From a virus, in the IMG/VR virus record IMGVR_UViG_3300012005_000019, positions 1 to 41,593 of that record: a DNA stretch of 41,593 nt, one strand, 5' to 3'. The notes below the pieces were generated by a model. That model was not told where the DNA came from, made no database searches, and saw only the letters and a list, made by a program, of their open reading frames with translations. Shown here in pieces: positions 5,025-26,733 of the stretch (the stretch's first letter is position 1; every line of letters begins with the position of its first letter). Made by a program: the position numbers and the translations under genes.

Positions 5025-5095
5025 TGCGGTTCGCTCTCGCCCGCATCACCGCGCCATGGCTGCTCTTTGCAGCGTCCGTCCTGCTGTTCAATTAG
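5024..5095 (+). CDS. Possible 23-residue membrane peptide
   Basis: A tiny frame starting at the ATG of a TAATG overlap with the preceding stop, so it could be translated by re-initiation. It would encode MRFALARITAPWLLFAASVL plus three residues: a positively charged start followed by one hydrophobic segment. The stop TAG is fused to the AGGAG ribosome site of the next gene. Coupling and the single membrane-helix profile support it; its length makes chance possible. Confidence 0.35.
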   Translation: MRFALARITAPWLLFAASVLLFN

Positions 5096-5105
5096 GAGAA
5101 TCATA

Positions 5106-5441
5106 ATGGTCAAGCGCGCCCCGAAAACACCCGCAGATAAGCCCACACAGGGCGACCTAACCCACACCCTGTCGAACAGCGCCGGCCAGCTGCTGTCGTT
5201 CGTCCAGCGCTATGAGCGTATGAGCGAGGAAATCCAGGGCCTCACCGAGGACCGCAAGGAAATCATGGGCGAAGCCAAGGCCAGCGGCTACGACACCGCA
5301 ACGCTGCGCCGCGAGATTGCCCTGCGCAAGCTGGACAAGGACGACCGCCAGGAGCGCGAGGCCATGGGCGAGCTGTACCGCGAGACGATCGACAAGGCGG
5401 AAGCCGCTGAGCGCGCCCAGTCTGTAGAGGACGGCGAATAA
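5106..5441 (+). CDS. gapR: GapR-like DNA-binding protein (DUF2312 family)
   Basis: A 111-residue protein whose residues about 19-105 match the GapR/DUF2312 pattern: N-terminal helix (LLSFVQRYERMSEEIQGLTE), then EIMGEAKASGYDTATLRREI and ALRKLDKDDRQEREAMGELY. GapR of Caulobacter is a nucleoid-associated protein that clamps overtwisted DNA ahead of replication and transcription forks. Copies on phages and plasmids of Alphaproteobacteria are known. The ATG at 5106 follows AGGAG at 5094-5098; the in-frame ATG at 5067 lacks this and was not chosen. The stop overlaps the next ATG (TAATG). The family is clear; whether it organises phage DNA or interferes with host GapR is not visible. Confidence 0.85.
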   Translation: MVKRAPKTPADKPTQGDLTHTLSNSAGQLLSFVQRYERMSEEIQGLTEDRKEIMGEAKASGYDTATLRREIALRKLDKDDRQEREAMGELYRETIDKAEAAERAQSVEDGE

Positions 5442-7872: not shown

Positions 7873-8122
7873 AATTAACACCGTCTGTATGGTCGCCAAG
7901 CACTGGCTGGTGACGCCGCGCACGGTGCGGAATCGTATTAAGTCAGGCGCACTCCCTTGCCTCCGTCTCGGCGGCACTGTACGCCTGACCCGGCAGCAGG
8001 TCGAAGGATACGAAGCAACGTGCATCTGTGGAGGCACCCAAACGGCACGTTCTATGTCCGCTATGGCCGGCGCCGCCTCTCCACTGCGACGGGCGATCGC
8101 AGGCTTGCCGAACAATTCCTAG
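7859..8122 (+). CDS. xis: Excisionase-like HTH protein
   Basis: An 87-residue protein with a winged-helix HTH_17/excisionase-type domain at residues about 16-50 (WLVTPRTVRNRIKSGALPCL then RLGGTVRLTRQQVEGYE). Such proteins bend attachment-site DNA and steer the integrase toward excision. The rest is low-complexity with a Cys-x-Cys pair. I chose GTG 7859, which has GGGAG 6 bases upstream; ATG 7844 is an in-frame alternative. It overlaps both the membrane protein upstream and the integrase downstream, whose start lies inside it, so the pair is co-translated. Confidence 0.7.
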   Translation: MALAEINTVCMVAKHWLVTPRTVRNRIKSGALPCLRLGGTVRLTRQQVEGYEATCICGGTQTARSMSAMAGAASPLRRAIAGLPNNS

Positions 8123-8982
8123 CCCGCTTCATTTCCCTGGAAGGACGAACGCCGGGAAAGCAATACACGGTTGGCGAGATCCTTGACGGCTATTGCACCG
8201 ACAAAGCCCTGACCGTTAGGGCTCCGGCCGCAATTCGGTTCGCTGTGCTGGGCCTCCAGCCCCTTGACGACCTTCTCCCTGCCCATCTGACCCCGCCGGT
8301 GATACGCCGCTGGGCGGGCTCCAGGGGCGTCTCAAACGGGACCGTGCTGCGGGAGGTAGGCGTGCTGCGCGCTGCCCTGGCCTGGGCGGCCGAACACCAG
8401 TGGATTTCCAGCATTCCCGCCATTTCCAACCCGGTGCCCACACCCAAGCCCCGCCAGCGCTGGGTGACGCAGGACGAAGCACGCAGGCTTCTGGCCGGCT
8501 GTCGGGAGCCGCACGTAAGGCTGTTCATAACCCTGGGCCTGATGACGGTCGCCCGCACCGGCGCGATCCTGGACGCCCGCTGGGACCAGGTTGACTGGTA
8601 CAGCCGCACGATCGACTACGGAGACGGGCACGGCAACAAGCAGCGCGCTGTAGTGCCCCTGAACGACGAAGTGTTCAGCCTTCTCCAGGCCGCCAAGCAG
8701 CTGGCGTGCTCGCCCTATATCGTGGAGTTCCGGGGCCAGCGCCTAGTGTCGATCAAACGGGGATTCGAGGCCGCCTGCGTCCGGGCCCAGCTGGCGGACG
8801 TGACGCCGCATATTCTGCGTCACTCCGGCGCCACGTGGATGGCCATGGCGGGTGTGCCGCTGTCCGAGATAGCGCGCATGCTGGGCGACTCTGAGACCAT
8901 GGTGGAGAAGGTCTATGCGAAGAAGACCCCGGACTATCTGCGGCGCGCGGCCGGTGCGTTACAGCTCGGCTCGGTGCCCTAG
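8020..8982 (+). CDS. int: Tyrosine-type phage integrase
   Basis: A 320-residue tyrosine recombinase. An N-terminal arm-binding/SAM-like region (to about residue 150) is followed by the catalytic domain with R179 (VARTGAILDARW), H264-x-x-R267 (PHILRHSGATW) and nucleophile Y299 (EKVYAKK). The usual second His/Trp position is Asp290 in MLGDSE, a variant seen in other phage integrases. It catalyses site-specific insertion and excision of the phage. The start is the GTG at 8020 inside xis; an upstream in-frame ATG at 7957 would give only a shadow of xis as N-terminus. The attP core lies about 100 bases downstream, the typical arrangement. Confidence 0.9.
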   Translation: MHLWRHPNGTFYVRYGRRRLSTATGDRRLAEQFLARFISLEGRTPGKQYTVGEILDGYCTDKALTVRAPAAIRFAVLGLQPLDDLLPAHLTPPVIRRWAGSRGVSNGTVLREVGVLRAALAWAAEHQWISSIPAISNPVPTPKPRQRWVTQDEARRLLAGCREPHVRLFITLGLMTVARTGAILDARWDQVDWYSRTIDYGDGHGNKQRAVVPLNDEVFSLLQAAKQLACSPYIVEFRGQRLVSIKRGFEAACVRAQLADVTPHILRHSGATWMAMAGVPLSEIARMLGDSETMVEKVYAKKTPDYLRRAAGALQLGSVP

Positions 8983-9188
8983 CTCGGGTGCGTTCACGTG
9001 TAACCAAATGGGGTTACAAAGGGTTAAAACGCCCGCTTTGACCCTCAATTTACTCAGCATTACCTAGGGGCTCGGTATCTTGGTAAGGGATAGGTCGTGA
9101 GTTCGATTCTCACCTACGGCACCATATTTTCAAGGGCTTAGCTGCCCTGTAACCAGGGCCGGTGGTTACAATGTAACCGGAAAAGCCA
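8983..9188. other. attP: attP region with integrase arm-type sites
   Basis: Non-coding stretch between int and a small membrane ORF. It holds five GTAACC/GGTTAC elements: 9000-9005, 9012-9017, 9149-9154, 9164-9169 and 9173-9178. The first two form an inverted pair, and the last two form GGTTACAATGTAACC. They flank the tRNA-derived core at 9079-9124 on both sides, as expected for arm-type integrase or Xis/IHF sites. The site assignment is inference from layout; the repeats are directly visible. Confidence 0.65.
9079..9124 (+). other. attP core: 3' part of tRNA-Thr(GGT)
   Basis: Forty-six bases read as the 3' part of a tRNA: anticodon loop TTGGTAA (anticodon GGT at 9082-9084), 3' anticodon stem GGGAT, variable loop, T-arm GTGAG-TTCGATT-CTCAC, acceptor strand CTACGGC, discriminator A and encoded CCA. 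Upstream bases do not pair with GGGAT (GTATC instead of the expected ATCCC), so identity to a tRNA gene stops at the anticodon loop. That is where tyrosine integrases commonly cross over. It is therefore an attachment core, not a functional tRNA. Confidence 0.75.
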
Positions 9189-12697: not shown

Positions 12698-13195
12698 CTA
12701 GTGCGTGACTATTTGCCCGCCCAGCGCCTGAACAAAGGCTTCCAAGGCCGCGAGCTTGTCTGGAGGCAGGTCTACCGCGTGCGCTGCGGCTGGCGGCAGG
12801 TCGCCAGGGTGCGCTGCCCGTACCGGGGCCGGCGGCGGGGTCTTGGCGGGCCTGCGCGCTTCTTTCTCGGATCTGCGAGCTGCACGTTCTTCGCGCTGTG
12901 CAGTTGTATTCAAGTTCTTTTTCGCAACAGCGCGAAGCGCCACGTCTTCTGACGGCGCCTGATTGGTCAAGCTCGCCAATACGCCCTTGCAGGCGATTTC
13001 TACAACCTTGGAAACTAGACTGTTTTCGCGCGCCTTGTTCAGCAACGACGTGCTTACCCCGATCATGCGGGCCGCCCGCGTGATGCCAACAATCCCTGCA
13101 AGACGCATAGCATAGTGTGGCTCTACCACTTCGCCCTTGCTGCGCGGCGCCGCGCGCTTGGTGCGCGGCGCAGTGCTTTTCTTTTTCTTCGCCAT
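12698..13195 (-). CDS. Basic HTH-type DNA-binding protein
   Basis: A 165-residue protein of unknown family. The N-terminus is a Lys/Arg/Ala-rich tail (MAKKKKSTAPRTKRAAP), followed by an HTH-like segment at about residues 29-63 (MRLAGIVGITRAARMIGVST), a charged linker and an Ala/Pro-rich C-terminus. I chose ATG 13195 because GGAG lies 9 bases before it; an upstream in-frame ATG lacks this. It is preceded by a 132-base gap with several palindromes, so it may be separately controlled. It is one of few regulator candidates in the window. Confidence 0.6.
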   Translation of the reverse strand: MAKKKKSTAPRTKRAAPRSKGEVVEPHYAMRLAGIVGITRAARMIGVSTSLLNKARENSLVSKVVEIACKGVLASLTNQAPSEDVALRAVAKKNLNTTAQREERAARRSEKEARRPAKTPPPAPVRAAHPGDLPPAAAHAVDLPPDKLAALEAFVQALGGQIVTH

Positions 13196-16729: not shown

Positions 16730-16867
16730 TTAAGGAAGTTGAGAATTGGAAAGGTCGCGCTGCACGGCCTTCCAGATAGCTTCGCGCCGTGCCGGGGCTT
16801 CCATATTGGAGCTCCATGCCGCGTGATAGGCGGCGGCGCATCCGTAGATCAATTTCAGAATCCACAC
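16730..16867 (-). CDS. Hypothetical 45-residue protein
   Basis: A short frame from GTG 16867 with GGAGAG 6 bases upstream. It encodes a helical, Ala/Trp-rich peptide (MWILKLIYGCAAAYHAAWSS, then a basic EAPARREAIWKAVQRDL segment). The next gene starts 12 bases after its stop. The strong ribosome site and tight packing support it over the competing frame starting at 16865, which has no better signal. Confidence 0.5.
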   Translation of the reverse strand: MWILKLIYGCAAAYHAAWSSNMEAPARREAIWKAVQRDLSNSQLP

Positions 16868-16879
16868 GTAACGCTCTCC

Positions 16880-17049
16880 TTATGCCGCTTTGTCGCGCTG
16901 CTTAAAGTAAGTCTCAACAATGTATTCCAGCTGGCCATTGCGGGAGCGGTGCTGCTCCGCTCCGCGCGCTCGGCCTCCAGTTTGGCGTAAAGGTCGGGCT
17001 GGAGCCGCAGCGGGATCGTCTTGCACAGCTCAGTCTTGGTTCTTGGCAC
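16880..17049 (-). pseudogene. Ribbon-helix-helix-like gene with apparent frameshift
   Basis: From GTG 17049 the first frame reads CKTIPLRLQPDLYAKLEAER, a typical Arc/MetJ-type strand-helix start. Past about 16970 the expected second helix is in a different frame: RSRNGQLEYIVETYFKQR, ending at a TAA at 16882-16880 directly before the AAGGAG of the next gene. The unshifted frame would run to 16855 and overlap the next gene. Either a true frameshift, a sequence error or recoding explains this. The intact product would be a small DNA-binding regulator of about 55 residues. Confidence 0.5.
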
Positions 17050-19732: not shown

Positions 19733-19876
19733 TCACTTGCTGGTCTCTCTCACTGCCACGTGCCACGTGCGGCCATGGTGGTCTGTCACGGTCATGCTGC
19801 TGCAATCGCGCTGCCACGCGGCGTCCCAGCCGATCGTGCGCGCCGCATAGCTCAGGAACGCGAGGACGATGTTCAC
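19733..19876 (-). CDS. Hypothetical 47-residue protein coupled to primase
   Basis: A short protein starting at GTG 19876, which overlaps the primase stop (GTGA). It has a hydrophobic start (MNIVLAFLSYAARTIGW) and a polar end (MTVTDHHGRTWHVAVRET). The longer reading from 19954 lies inside the primase gene and is not needed. No family recognised. Confidence 0.45.
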   Translation of the reverse strand: MNIVLAFLSYAARTIGWDAAWQRDCSSMTVTDHHGRTWHVAVRETSK

Positions 19877-22074
19877 CGCGGCGCCCGCTTTCCGAACTCG
19901 GGCCACTGCTTCATCAGCCGTTCGAAGTCGTTCTGTGATAGCGGCTCTTTCCACTCATCAAAATCTGTGATGACCAGGTACATGCGGCGAACTCCCTGCC
20001 ACATGAAGCCCTCGGGATTATCCTTCGGCCGCAAATAGGGAATGCCATTGTCGCGCAGTTCGCGGCTGATGCGCCCAATAGGCGCGCCCTTGTCGAGCTT
20101 GCTGCCCAGCAGGGTCTCCATCACGTGCGGGAACATAAGCGCCAGCTCGCGCGGCTCATACCACGGGCGAATCTGCCAATGCTTCATCGCCTCCAGGCTC
20201 CCTGTCGCCGCGTTTATCTGCTGGGCGTTGTTTCCGCGGAGGACCGTTTGACACCATGTTTCATTGGCTCGCAGCCACTTCTCCACGGAGTTTTCATCGC
20301 TCGTAATCATGTCGCGGGCGAGCTGCTGCACCGACGTAAGGCCCTCTATATAGGCCATGTACTTCTCGCGCGATGCAGGGGCCTTTGGCGGCGGACGCCA
20401 GCCTTTCAGGTCATACTCGATCAGGTAGCCCAGCAGCGCCTTCGGGCCGCCGGCATCGCTCCACTCCATGCTCTCTTTGCCCAAGTAGCGATATAGCGCC
20501 TGCATTTCGTCGCCAAAGTCGGGCTTGGGGCAGTCGATCACGACCATGCGGCGATCGTCATAGGAGAAGCTGCCAACCGCGCGCTTGTTGGCCGTCAGCA
20601 TGTAGACCGTGTAGCTCTGCACTTCCTTTGCGACCATATATTTCTCGTTCATGTCGCGGTCGGTGTCGGTGATTAAGCTCTTGAGTTGGTCGCCATAGGT
20701 TTGTAGATGCTCCGGGGACGCTTCGTTGACCAGCGCGAACAGCGTTTTCTCCATCCAGCCCTGGAACTCCGCGCCGAAGGATTTGCTTTGCAGGCTCTTG
20801 CTGTAGGGCGCGAACACCTGACACATGGTCTCGCCCCACAGGGTCTTGCCGCTGCCCTGGTCGCCTATCAACACCAGGCACAGGCCCAGCTTCGACATGG
20901 GGTTCTGCGCCTTGTACGCCATCATTTTAAGCGGCAAATCGCGGTCGGCCTCCTCCATGTTCTGGAACATGAACCGACTCAGCTTGAGGAAACTCGCCAC
21001 GCGCAGATCGTCCGCCGTCACGCCGCGCTCAAAAGCGAAGTCAACCCAGCTGTTAAGGCACGGCAAGCCCTTATTGTCGGGCACCACGTCGGCCATGCCG
21101 GGCCGGAACAGCATGCGGGCGTATCTCGCCGCGTGCGGGTGCGTCAGCCAGGTTTGCGCTACCGATATTTCCTTGGATTTGGCGCGCTGCGATCCGCCGA
21201 CCGTTTGATGCTTGAGCGTGCTGAATCGGCTTCCAACGACAAAATTGTCCTTACGCATGAACTCGCGGTGCTTGCGGTCCCAAATCATGCCGTCACTGTC
21301 GATCCACGCCACTTGGGCGTTAAGGCTGATGACCTTGGCGTCCAGGCCACCCAAGGGCACAGAAGCCTCCAGGAGCGCGCGCAGCCCGTCCGGGCCATAT
21401 GCCAGCAGGAAGTCGTCCAGGCCCATCTTGGAGCCGTCAGCGCCGGGAGGCAGGCGCACGATGTAGACCCGCGCGCCGCGCTCGCGCATCAGCATGTCAC
21501 TCAGCCGCGCCTCGGCGGTAAGGATGCCGGAGTTCGTCGCCGCATCGCTGTCAAACACAATGAAAGTGTCCCGGTTTGGCCACCGCGCCTCGGCCAGCTC
21601 GGGCATCAGGGTCTCGCCCCCATGGCCGGTCGAGTAGTTCCACACGCCGCCCAGCGCGATAACAGGGAACCCAGCCGCCGCGCCCGCCAGCGCCTTCTTC
21701 TCACCTTCTGTCACCAGGATGGGCTCCTGCACGTCGGCCAGGATGCGCGGCCAGTCCGGGCCGGGCGGGAAATAGGCATGGCTACCGGACGCCTTGGGCT
21801 GGCCGTAGCGCTGCTCTTTCGACGCGGTGAACGTACCGCCCTTGCGCTTCGGATTCAGGTATCGCACGCGGCAGAATGGCTTCGTTTCCCCGTCCAGGAA
21901 GTAGGTCGCGATCTCGCCGCTCGCCTGCCAGTACGGGATTACCAGCGCCGGCTCGGCGTCGAAATCAGGGTAAATCTCGCTCGCGTCCGCCGTGTAAAAT
22001 ATCCCTGCCGCGTCAGCATCCGCCTGTGAAATCCCGCTGCGGGCAAGGTCAGCTAATGCAGCGGGAGGGAGCAT
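19873..22074 (-). CDS. Primase/helicase: TOPRIM-like (DUF3854) plus DUF5906-type ATPase
   Basis: A 733-residue replication protein. The N-terminal half has a TOPRIM-like DUF3854 domain: EPILVTEGEKKALAGAAAGF (about 117-136), then FIVFDSDAAT (about 172) and GLDDFLLAYG. The C-terminal half is a superfamily-3-like helicase/ATPase of the DUF5906 type: P-loop GDQGSGKT (about 402-409), FALVNEASP, SLITDTDRDMNEKYM, and the sensor-like MLTANKRAVG and DDRRMVVIDC. It presumably primes and unwinds DNA for the family A polymerase. The ATG at 22074 has only a weak GAGAG upstream. A TGACACGTCA-containing region lies upstream. Confidence 0.88.
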   Translation of the reverse strand: MLPPAALADLARSGISQADADAAGIFYTADASEIYPDFDAEPALVIPYWQASGEIATYFLDGETKPFCRVRYLNPKRKGGTFTASKEQRYGQPKASGSHAYFPPGPDWPRILADVQEPILVTEGEKKALAGAAAGFPVIALGGVWNYSTGHGGETLMPELAEARWPNRDTFIVFDSDAATNSGILTAEARLSDMLMRERGARVYIVRLPPGADGSKMGLDDFLLAYGPDGLRALLEASVPLGGLDAKVISLNAQVAWIDSDGMIWDRKHREFMRKDNFVVGSRFSTLKHQTVGGSQRAKSKEISVAQTWLTHPHAARYARMLFRPGMADVVPDNKGLPCLNSWVDFAFERGVTADDLRVASFLKLSRFMFQNMEEADRDLPLKMMAYKAQNPMSKLGLCLVLIGDQGSGKTLWGETMCQVFAPYSKSLQSKSFGAEFQGWMEKTLFALVNEASPEHLQTYGDQLKSLITDTDRDMNEKYMVAKEVQSYTVYMLTANKRAVGSFSYDDRRMVVIDCPKPDFGDEMQALYRYLGKESMEWSDAGGPKALLGYLIEYDLKGWRPPPKAPASREKYMAYIEGLTSVQQLARDMITSDENSVEKWLRANETWCQTVLRGNNAQQINAATGSLEAMKHWQIRPWYEPRELALMFPHVMETLLGSKLDKGAPIGRISRELRDNGIPYLRPKDNPEGFMWQGVRRMYLVITDFDEWKEPLSQNDFERLMKQWPEFGKRAPR

Positions 22075-24057: not shown

Positions 24058-24567
24058 TTAGTTGTTGGAGAAAACCCACAGCTCGCCGTCATGGCGCACA
24101 AAGCAAACATCGCCGCTCATGCGTGCGTCGTTGGCGTAGGCTTCGAAATCTATGTAGTTTTCAAGATGCTTCGGGACACCCTCAAGGCCGCCTGTTTCCT
24201 TCAGCCACTCAGCAGCCCAGTCCGACTCGTCGCGGTATCCCTTGCCCATGAACTTTTCGCGGGCTTCGTCAATGTCGGCATCGTCCCGGACGTTGTCCTG
24301 ATAAACCGCCAGCAGCTCGCGGTCGTCTTCACCCAGCTCCAGCCATTCCCATATGGCGTCCGACACGCTGCTCTCAGAATACATCGCCTTTGGGAAGCCC
24401 TCAAAATCCTGAAACATAAATTCGGGATCGGCTTCGTCTTTGTGCAGTTCAGCGCACGCGGCGAGAAAATCCGCCTTGTCGGCGAACTTCTCAAGATCAA
24501 GCCACGCGCCTTTGCGGTTGCCGTTGTTGTACTTCGCGTAAGTGCCGACATAAATTTGAATGGTCAT
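24058..24567 (-). CDS. ardA: Antirestriction protein ArdA
   Basis: A 169-residue acidic protein matching ArdA: IYVGTYAKYNNGNRKGAWLD at the start, FLAACAELHKDEADPEFMFQ, DFEGFP, then WEWLELGEDDRELLAVYQDN. ArdA dimers mimic B-form DNA and block type I restriction-modification enzymes; the length and charge fit (family about 165-170 residues). It is near the control region, so it would be made early, before incoming DNA is cut. ATG is at 24567. Confidence 0.9.
   Translation of the reverse strand: MTIQIYVGTYAKYNNGNRKGAWLDLEKFADKADFLAACAELHKDEADPEFMFQDFEGFPKAMYSESSVSDAIWEWLELGEDDRELLAVYQDNVRDDADIDEAREKFMGKGYRDESDWAAEWLKETGGLEGVPKHLENYIDFEAYANDARMSGDVCFVRHDGELWVFSNN

Positions 24568-24931: not shown

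Positions 24932-24935
<4 letters not shown>
24840..24935 (-). CDS. Possible 31-residue early peptide
   Basis: A short frame overlapping its neighbours by four bases on both sides (ATGA at the start, GTGA at the stop). It encodes a helical peptide (SAESVRLILQQLYIAQLARK). The double coupling in a packed operon is the main support; no family recognised. Confidence 0.45.
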
Positions 24936-25455
<520 letters not shown>

Positions 25456-25459
<4 letters not shown>

Positions 25460-25641
25460 ACCTGCACCACGAAGTGGCCAGCCTGCACGGCTTGCGTGCA
25501 GATCGCGCGGCGGGTGCAAATGATCGCGCCGTAAGCATTGTCCGCGCGATCGCATGCGCGGCTGGCGCGCACGCCCGACTTGTAAATGGTGACTTTGCCG
25601 GTGTGGCGGTTGGTGACTTCGTAGTGGCTGATCTCTGTCAT
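25456..25641 (-). CDS. Small phage protein, first gene of the leftward operon
   Basis: A 61-residue protein (EISHYEVTNRHTGKVTIYKS, then RASRACDRADNAYGAIICTR). The YxVTNRxTGKVxxYKS...ACDRxDNAYG pattern recurs in phage small proteins; function unknown. GGAATGG lies before ATG 25641. It is the promoter-proximal gene next to the repeat-rich control region. Confidence 0.65.
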
Positions 25642-25663
25642 GGCGTTCCATTCCGTGTTTCTC

Positions 25664-25704
25664 TGCTACTATATAATGCCGTAGCAACACGAAAGTCTAG
25701 CGCC
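25664..25704 (-). promoter_or_regulatory. Candidate early leftward promoter with overlapping operator
   Basis: On the minus strand TAGACT is followed after 17-18 bases by TTATAT/TATATA. The repeat TGCTAC...GTAGCA (25664-25686) overlaps the -10 region. This would drive the whole leftward operon, starting about 20-40 bases upstream of ATG 25641. The operator overlap suggests repression or activation at this palindrome. The -35 box is weak. Confidence 0.4.
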
Positions 25705-25983
25705 TTGACACGGAATAATGGCGTCTCAGCATTACAAATGCGCAATACTATATCGTAGCAACGCGCGCCCAGCTCTACACAATATGATAGCATGCAGCGA
25801 TCGGGCACGCCGGCCGGCTATGCCGCGCAACTATGTTGCTGCATTATTGGGACGGTATCTCGCGCTGGCTTGGTGACGCGGTAAGGGGCGCGGATTTGAC
25901 GCTGCGTCACTTAGTGGCTTGGTTTCCACGCGAAACATAGTGGATTGTGCGAGTTAGTCCCGCCGTTGCTACGTTTCTCGGTC

Positions 25984-26012
25984 TGCTATCATAGTTTTGA
26001 AGTATGATAGCA
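25984..26012. repeat. Perfect 10-bp inverted repeat TGCTATCATA/TATGATAGCA
   Basis: Arms 25984-25993 and 26003-26012 are exact complements separated by 9 bases. Dyad spacing of this size fits binding of a dimeric regulator on one face of DNA. It is one of two best-matching copies of the control-region palindrome family. Confidence 0.8.
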
Positions 26013-26040
26013 AAAACTTTTGGTCCGCTTTAGGGTACAA

Positions 26041-26090
26041 ACAATGCTATGCTAATATATATACACTATTATATATTATATTAGCATTGT
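26041..26090. repeat. AT-rich palindrome, candidate unwinding element
   Basis: ACAATGCTA (26041-26049) pairs with TAGCATTGT (26082-26090), and GCTAATATA (26051-26059) with TATATTAGC (26077-26085). The interior is almost only A and T in an otherwise G+C-rich genome. It could form a cruciform or melt easily, as in replication origins. Confidence 0.7.
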
Positions 26091-26118
26091 TTCTCTCATA
26101 AAATGCGCCAGCGACCCC

Positions 26119-26150
26119 TGCTACTATACTTTGGGAAAATTATAGTAGCA
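26119..26150. repeat. Perfect 10-bp inverted repeat TGCTACTATA/TATAGTAGCA
   Basis: Arms 26119-26128 and 26141-26150 are exact complements with a 12-base spacer. It is a close variant of the repeat at 25984 with changes only in arm positions 6-7. Confidence 0.8.
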
Positions 26151-26617
26151 TTCCCGGATTACCCGAACCGCCGCCTGGCCACGCGGAAACTCGGTCACTC
26201 AGCAACGAGAATTATTCAGCGCTACTGCATAACGTAGTAGCATTGTTGCCGCGTCACCCAGCCACGCAGCACCAAGCCCGCCCCGCCGGTGCCAGCCACC
26301 ACACAGCCCCTAGCAGCCCCGTACGCGGCGTTTCGATTCAATCCATTCCATTCCACCAAGCAACGACGCAACGCCGTCACCGAGCTTCCCTGGCCTCGTG
26401 GTGGCACGTGGCAACCTCGTCGACTGGTTCCTAGGTAAATGGGGTTCCCTTCGTACCCGGGGGTATGTTCGATAGGATTGGACTGGGATGGCCGTAAGGT
26501 GCGCTCTTGCGCCGATTCCCAAAATCCCAATGGTGCTACTACATTATATGATAGCAGCCCGGGAAACGACGAAACTGGGTTGTCCGCCAAGCCCGGACAC
26601 CTGAGAAACGCAGCGCC

Positions 26618-26646
26618 TTGACACGTCACCACGACGCGCCTAAACC
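26618..26646 (+). promoter_or_regulatory. Candidate rightward promoter
   Basis: TTGACA (26618-26623), 17 bases, then TAAACC. With the preceding base this gives CTAAACC, close to the GCTANAWC -10 of Caulobacter-type promoters. It contains TGACACGTCA at 26619-26628. A leader of about 80 bases with a CCTGG/CCAGG hairpin (26664-26676) precedes the first gene at 26734. Confidence 0.45.
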
Positions 26647-26733
26647 TGCCGGGCGGATGGGTGCCTGGGACGCCAGGGGTTGCCATGGCGCCGGCCTCGC
26701 CCGGTCCCCATCTGAGCTATTCGGAGAAATCCA

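Follow-up and report, generated by a model that had tools for sequence, protein, structure and literature searches.

SF3 helicases use short inverted recognition words beside AT-rich DNA at the SV40 and papillomavirus origins, and the met boxes of MetJ are 8-bp units. In PICIs the origin always has an AT-rich region with a set of iterons on either side (PMC6092414), and in both SaPI Rep and SCCmec Cch2 it is the C-terminal domain that binds short iterons (PMC7581432). NrS-1 PrimPol recognises TTTGGTTA, which occurs twice in the middle of the NrS-1 genome. Among tailed phages with a polymerase of their own and a D5/VapE-type primase-helicase, the origin is unmapped in most.

Here we describe a 1.1-kb intergenic region in a window of 41,593 nucleotides, this window being the whole stretch of viral DNA that was analysed (Table 1). 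Judging from the sequence, we consider that this region is probably (with a likelihood of about 0.6) the replication origin of the phage, similar to those of SaPIs and PICIs and opened by the phage's own D5/NrS-1-type primase-helicase. Of the three roles that an earlier note on this DNA had put forward for the region, the origin is the best supported, given the AT-rich core, the iteron-like units that flank it and the association with a replication module. As in SaPIs and PICIs, two sets of short repeats flank an AT-rich region, and the element encodes an initiator helicase of the D5/SF3 class. Unlike those satellites, however, this is a tailed phage, and its repeats are dozens of degenerate, 8-bp-phased units spread over 1.1 kb, with palindromes mirrored around the core. 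Whereas the SaPI/PICI origin lies just 3′ of rep, the array heads the early operon and begins, at 25641, 3.6 kb upstream of the start codon of the primase gene (22074), a position that counts against the origin reading.

A D5-family helicase and an A-family polymerase are encoded together, and short direct repeats are intergenic, as for SCCmec Cch2 and CCPol-MP, yet Cch2 uses three AAGTG repeats and its inverted repeats are dispensable for binding (PMC7581432). The C-terminal region of the primase-helicase has NrS-1 PrimPol as its closest structural relative, while its N-terminal primase domain matches DUF3854, unlike the Prim/Pol domain of NrS-1; the array holds no copy of TTTGGTTA, the two copies in the window, at 9001 and 18932, both lying outside it. 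The recognition words and host of SV40 and the papillomaviruses differ from those of the phage array, and we use these viruses as an analogy only.

Table 1. Features of the intergenic array and of the genes discussed in the text (positions in the window)
Feature	Position	Strand	Remarks
GapR-like AT-DNA-binding protein	5067-5441	+	candidate core binder; Pfam PF10073, E 4e-22
HTH-containing protein	12698-13195	-	candidate binder of the TGCTA palindromes only
Primase-helicase, 733 aa	19873-22074	-	proposed initiator; Pfam DUF3854, DUF5906, VapE-like
Intergenic region, array of degenerate GTNNC/GNNAC units	25641-26733		between divergent early (leftward) and late (rightward) operons
Outer left palindrome, 23 bp	25664-25686		half-site distance 16 bp
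Two single half sites, TGCTACGATA and TGCTATCATA	25751-25792	-
19-bp inverted repeat, left arm	25866-25884	+	partner 26246-26264, 89%
8-bp unit run GTCAC-TTA-GTGGC-TTG-GTTTC	25906-25926	+
Left flanking palindrome, TGCTATCATA-9-TATGATAGCA	25984-26012		centre 25998, ~67 bp left of core centre
AT-rich imperfect core palindrome, ends AACAATG / CATTGTT	26040-26091		centre 26065.5; proposed melting site
Right flanking palindrome, TGCTACTATA-12-TATAGTAGCA	26119-26150		centre 26134.5, ~69 bp right of core centre
8-bp unit run GCCAC-GCG-GAAAC-TCG-GTCAC-TCA-GCAAC	26178-26206	-
Palindrome GCTAC-TGC-ATAAC-GTA-GTAGC(A)	26221-26242		phase shared with the 8-bp units
8-bp unit run GTAGC-ATT-GTTGC-CGC-GTCAC-CCA-GCCAC	26237-26265	
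19-bp inverted repeat, right arm	26246-26264	-	repeat centred on the core, at 26065
8-bp unit run GCAAC-GAC-GCAAC-GCC-GTCAC	26360-26380	-
Conserved element GGGGGTATGTTCGATAGGATT	26459-26479	+	upstream of late genes
Outer right palindrome, 23 bp	26534-26556		beside the probable late promoter
Probable late promoter, TTGACA-17-TAAACC	26618-26646	+	62 bp right of the last palindrome

The 1.1-kb non-coding region that the earlier note had pointed out is indeed intergenic, and we find the whole of it to be an array phased at 8 bp. That note had missed both this phasing and the 16-bp half-site distance of the 23-bp palindromes. The region holds 61 GTNNC/GNNAC units where 30 are expected, with 16 unit pairs at a distance of 8 bp (0.7 expected) and 11 at 16 bp (0.8 expected); none of the other tiles of the window gives a comparable count. 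On either side of the core the units form runs, each three to six units long, as in GTTGC-TGA-GTGAC-CGA-GTTTC-CGC-GTGGC on the minus strand. The GTNNC unit was picked after the data had been seen; the lag test, which uses no motif, is independent of that choice. By this test, with dinucleotide-preserving shuffles as the reference, the self-match of the region at lag 8 reaches a z of ∼6.7-6.8; every kilobase of the window outside the region stays at 1.5 or below.

The five palindromes described previously within 25664-26556 are all present where they had been placed. Further single half sites stand at 25751-25760 and 25783-25792. Both palindromes that flank the core have the 10-bp arms ascribed to them, perfectly matched, with loops of 9 nt (25984-26012) and 12 nt (26119-26150). 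When the half-site motif was used to scan the window, as that note had advised, all 8 exact matches to TGCTAYNATA in the 41.6 kb fell inside 25664-26556 (shuffles: mean 0.13, maximum 1). Palindromes with perfect 8-bp arms number 3, against 0.19 in shuffles. The half sites of the three 23-bp palindromes are exactly 16 bp (2 × 8) apart, and thus we regard these palindromes as part of the 8-bp scheme; those of the 29- and 32-bp palindromes beside the core, at 22 and 25 bp, lie outside it. Given such uneven spacing (16, 22 or 25 bp), the suggestion that a single dimeric protein binds them all probably simplifies too much, the more so as the palindromes occur only in the closest relatives whereas the 8-bp units reach relatives without the HTH protein encoded at 12698-13195. 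We also considered the half sites as extended -10 elements, but dropped this by inspection, since matching -35 elements were not seen and the two members of a pair would point towards one another.

The AT-rich nested palindrome, placed at 26041-26090 by the earlier note, was found at 26040-26091, and the locus is arranged symmetrically around it. In three genomes the core is flanked by palindromes at mirror distances, of ∼68 bp in the window and, as read off the sequences, ∼59 bp in G003 and ∼63 bp in G006; its AACAATG / CATTGTT ends recur in G006 and partly in G003. Folding of 25975-26160 as single-stranded DNA gives three hairpins (z = -6.6). The phased units tend to be GTNNC to the left of the core and GNNAC to the right, with p = 0.001 for four genomes pooled and p = 0.011 for L125 alone in what was an exploratory test of orientation.

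No named phage relatives of the window were found by megablast and blastn against phages, and Rfam and tRNA scans gave no match. When 2.9 million viral contigs were scanned blind for TGCTAYNATAN{8,14}TATNRTAGCA, 108 stretches were returned, including two with six clustered half sites and a third with three, all of 60% GC. All three contigs proved to come from syntenic relatives of the window phage, in which the array has the same position with respect to the terminase operon. G003 is a whole genome of 41,887 bp with 114-bp terminal repeats, and its TerL, portal and polymerase are respectively 68%, 58% and 59% identical to those of the window (G000 in the comparisons below). A TerL scan and then a polymerase scan brought in more relatives, many of which were read over the full length of their records.

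An 8-bp period upstream of the terminase operon is seen in at least eight relatives (G003, G006, L125, L131, L132, G011, G019 and G020). Pairs at 8 bp number 13 in G003 (1.0 expected), 12 in L125 (0.8 expected), and 7 in L132, G019 and G020 (0.5-0.7 expected); summed over 12 relatives there are 74 pairs at distance 8 and 51 at 16, while each other distance from 4 to 19 has 0-18. In the motif-free lag-8 test the window, G003, L125, L132 and G020 have z values of 5-7. A lag-8 stretch was seen in none of 105 unrelated contigs, and the maximum among 745 unrelated 1-kb windows is 4 pairs at distance 8. L130 (1850-2750) has a 7-bp period in place of 8, with half sites GCTAAC/GTTAGC; in G014 a weak signal at lag 8 is unaccompanied by GTNNC pairs, and the words repeated in G007 are different ones. 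The apparent periodicity of two further sequences was discounted, that in L224 (1-700) being a strong tandem repeat of 18 bp close to a related polymerase gene and that in G021 reading as repetitive coding sequence.

The TGCTAYNATA palindromes are narrower in range than the 8-bp period, being found in G000, G003, G006 and L125 and, as a half site, in L126, and being absent from L009 and L010, the first polymerase relatives found. We therefore distinguish a widespread 8-bp layer from a palindrome layer specific to the subclade. G006 and L130 carry the conserved element GGGGGTATGTTCGATAGGATT in nearly identical form, and in G007 (partly) and L126 it can still be recognised.

The proposed initiator, the product of 19873-22074, has the NrS-1 PrimPol C-terminal region as its closest solved relative by sequence. 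A structure model of the protein (mean pLDDT 88) likewise has this NrS-1 region as its best match (6k9c, E 2.5e-18), followed by the SaPI5 primase-helicase (7ola), PriRep1-dsDNA (7pds) and poxvirus D5/E5. In the model, residues 641-697 form helices and a beta hairpin that appear, by eye, to be winged-helix-like. The C-terminal part of the primase is only 17-18% identical between the window and G019/G020, though the units look alike, which counts against the origin reading.

This primase-helicase is present in every array-bearing relative whose replication genes were available, and G030, which has related TerL and portal genes without a related polymerase or primase, has no array in its 36.5 kb. 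Several genomes that pair a related polymerase and primase with other structural genes carry short repeats of other kinds in large non-coding stretches: in G017 (24.0-24.5 kb) TGCATT recurs at 8 bp immediately upstream of the primase, G013 (4.6-5.1 kb) has 7-bp GATCT units and G026 (43.5-44.1 kb) has TTCAC..GTGAA palindromes. The isolated phages AXL_3 and PW916, whose polymerase and primase are distantly related, have no 8-bp array, and several remoter relatives of the replication module show no clear array. The link between array and replication module is thus suggestive, not strict.

As an origin, the region might work as follows. The GTNNC/GNNAC units on either side of the core would act as iterons in two oppositely oriented sets, on which the primase-helicase would assemble; it would then melt the AT core and be loaded bidirectionally, to be followed by the phage A-family polymerase. 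The TGCTAYNATA palindromes of the window's subclade may take an accessory protein, either the HTH or the GapR-like one. Binding of the primase-helicase to the units, and the start of replication at the array, are the steps that we infer. It is possible that an operator or architectural role is layered on top. We suggest more tentatively, and with some doubt, that this may be an origin architecture new in tailed phages, in which a hexameric SF3 primase-helicase would read, cooperatively and in place of discrete high-affinity iterons, an extended series of degenerate and symmetric GTNAC-like half-words set every 8 bp. The units would drift in sequence and period (8, sometimes 7 bp) from lineage to lineage, with their phasing preserved. 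If the array is an origin, 8-bp phasing of short words round an AT core would be a signature by which a probable origin could be located from sequence alone despite drift of the words, and origin recognition by a widespread class of primase-helicase would become directly testable.

The array lies exactly between divergent operons, as would also be the case for a multi-operator region at which a phage DNA-binding protein, on the units or the palindromes, switches between leftward early and rightward late transcription. The promoter beside the last palindrome, the only one of its type in the window, speaks for such a switch, which the earlier note had proposed, and a palindrome or half site also lies beside a similar promoter in L125 and L126. 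Among ten genomes compared, the HTH gene is found outside the window only in G003 and G006, both of which carry the TGCTAYNATA palindromes. However, an array of more than 1 kb with ∼60 units far exceeds the needs of a switch, no leftward promoter of the type was found, and the 8-bp units outlast the HTH gene, being kept in G011, G019 and G020, all of which are without the HTH and GapR-like genes. We therefore consider the switch unlikely. The HTH protein is absent from remoter relatives and was rejected as binder of all the units (its structure model, with a mean pLDDT of 49, was too poor for use). Contiguous direct or inverted units of 7-8 bp that overlap promoters, as here, are typical of ribbon-helix-helix proteins such as MetJ. 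The heptads of omega (pSM19035) are of this kind (PMC9499535), and L130 has a 7-bp period, so that the region might be a tandem array for such a protein, serving as an operator or partition site. A 64-aa RHH-like ORF can be read at 16855-17049, but neither Pfam nor NCBIfam gives a match to it and G003 and the other relatives lack a homologue, for which reason it was rejected as a binder. Unlike the omega and MetJ systems, then, the window lacks a conserved RHH protein, and a search for ParA, made with family PF13614 only, found none. A ribbon-helix-helix array thus appears improbable, and there is little support for the plasmid-type maintenance site suggested previously.

Strong hairpins would also be expected of a site of DNA architecture, at which the core and palindromes extrude cruciforms, bind the GapR-like protein and aid replication or packaging without starting replication. 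Among the ten genomes compared, the GapR-like gene occurs outside the window only in G003 and G006, the closest complete relatives, so that its distribution is exactly that of the AACAATG core. Such a site would nevertheless leave the 8-bp units unexplained, and these extend beyond the subclade; we regard this explanation as very improbable. The GapR-like protein also suggests an alpha-proteobacterial host. A large palindrome and an encoded tyrosine recombinase (7957-8982) could bring to mind a recombination or telomere-resolution site, that is, an attP or a protelomerase target. This is barely credible, given that the arms and spacers are too variable and that the recombinase, 17 kb away, is XerA/integrase-like and has no counterpart at that place in relatives. 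No protelomerase gene of the N15 type was found, the sole tyrosine recombinase found being this 341-aa XerA/XerC-like protein. G003 carries an integrase elsewhere, and together with the recombinase of the window this indicates that the phages may be temperate.

The region preferred here as an origin very probably also holds the late promoter. The alpha-proteobacterial housekeeping promoter consensus is TTGAC..GCTANAWC, which the sequence at 26618-26646 resembles; this is the sole match in the window to the TTGAC-N-TANAWY type, and similar promoters recur in L125 and L126. A two-hexamer sigma-70 scan gave no match. The palindrome at 26534-26556 has a counterpart at the same place in G003 and L125, and a half site in L126, and some of the palindromes may be operators. 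As to the cumulative GC skew, for which the earlier note had advised looking for a minimum here, in most genomes tested the array lies near one extreme with the other about half a circle away, but the sign varies, the array being at the maximum in G000 and G006 and at or near the minimum in G003, G007 and G020. These extremes coincide with the direction of transcription. Two further observations concern the genes to the left of the array, where 24058-24567 encodes an anti-restriction (ArdA-like) protein (phrog_2059, E 1e-28), and where a long GCG/GGC triplet tract (24945-25160) in the minus-strand ORF 24932-25453 encodes a low-complexity tail rich in Ala, Asp and Tyr.
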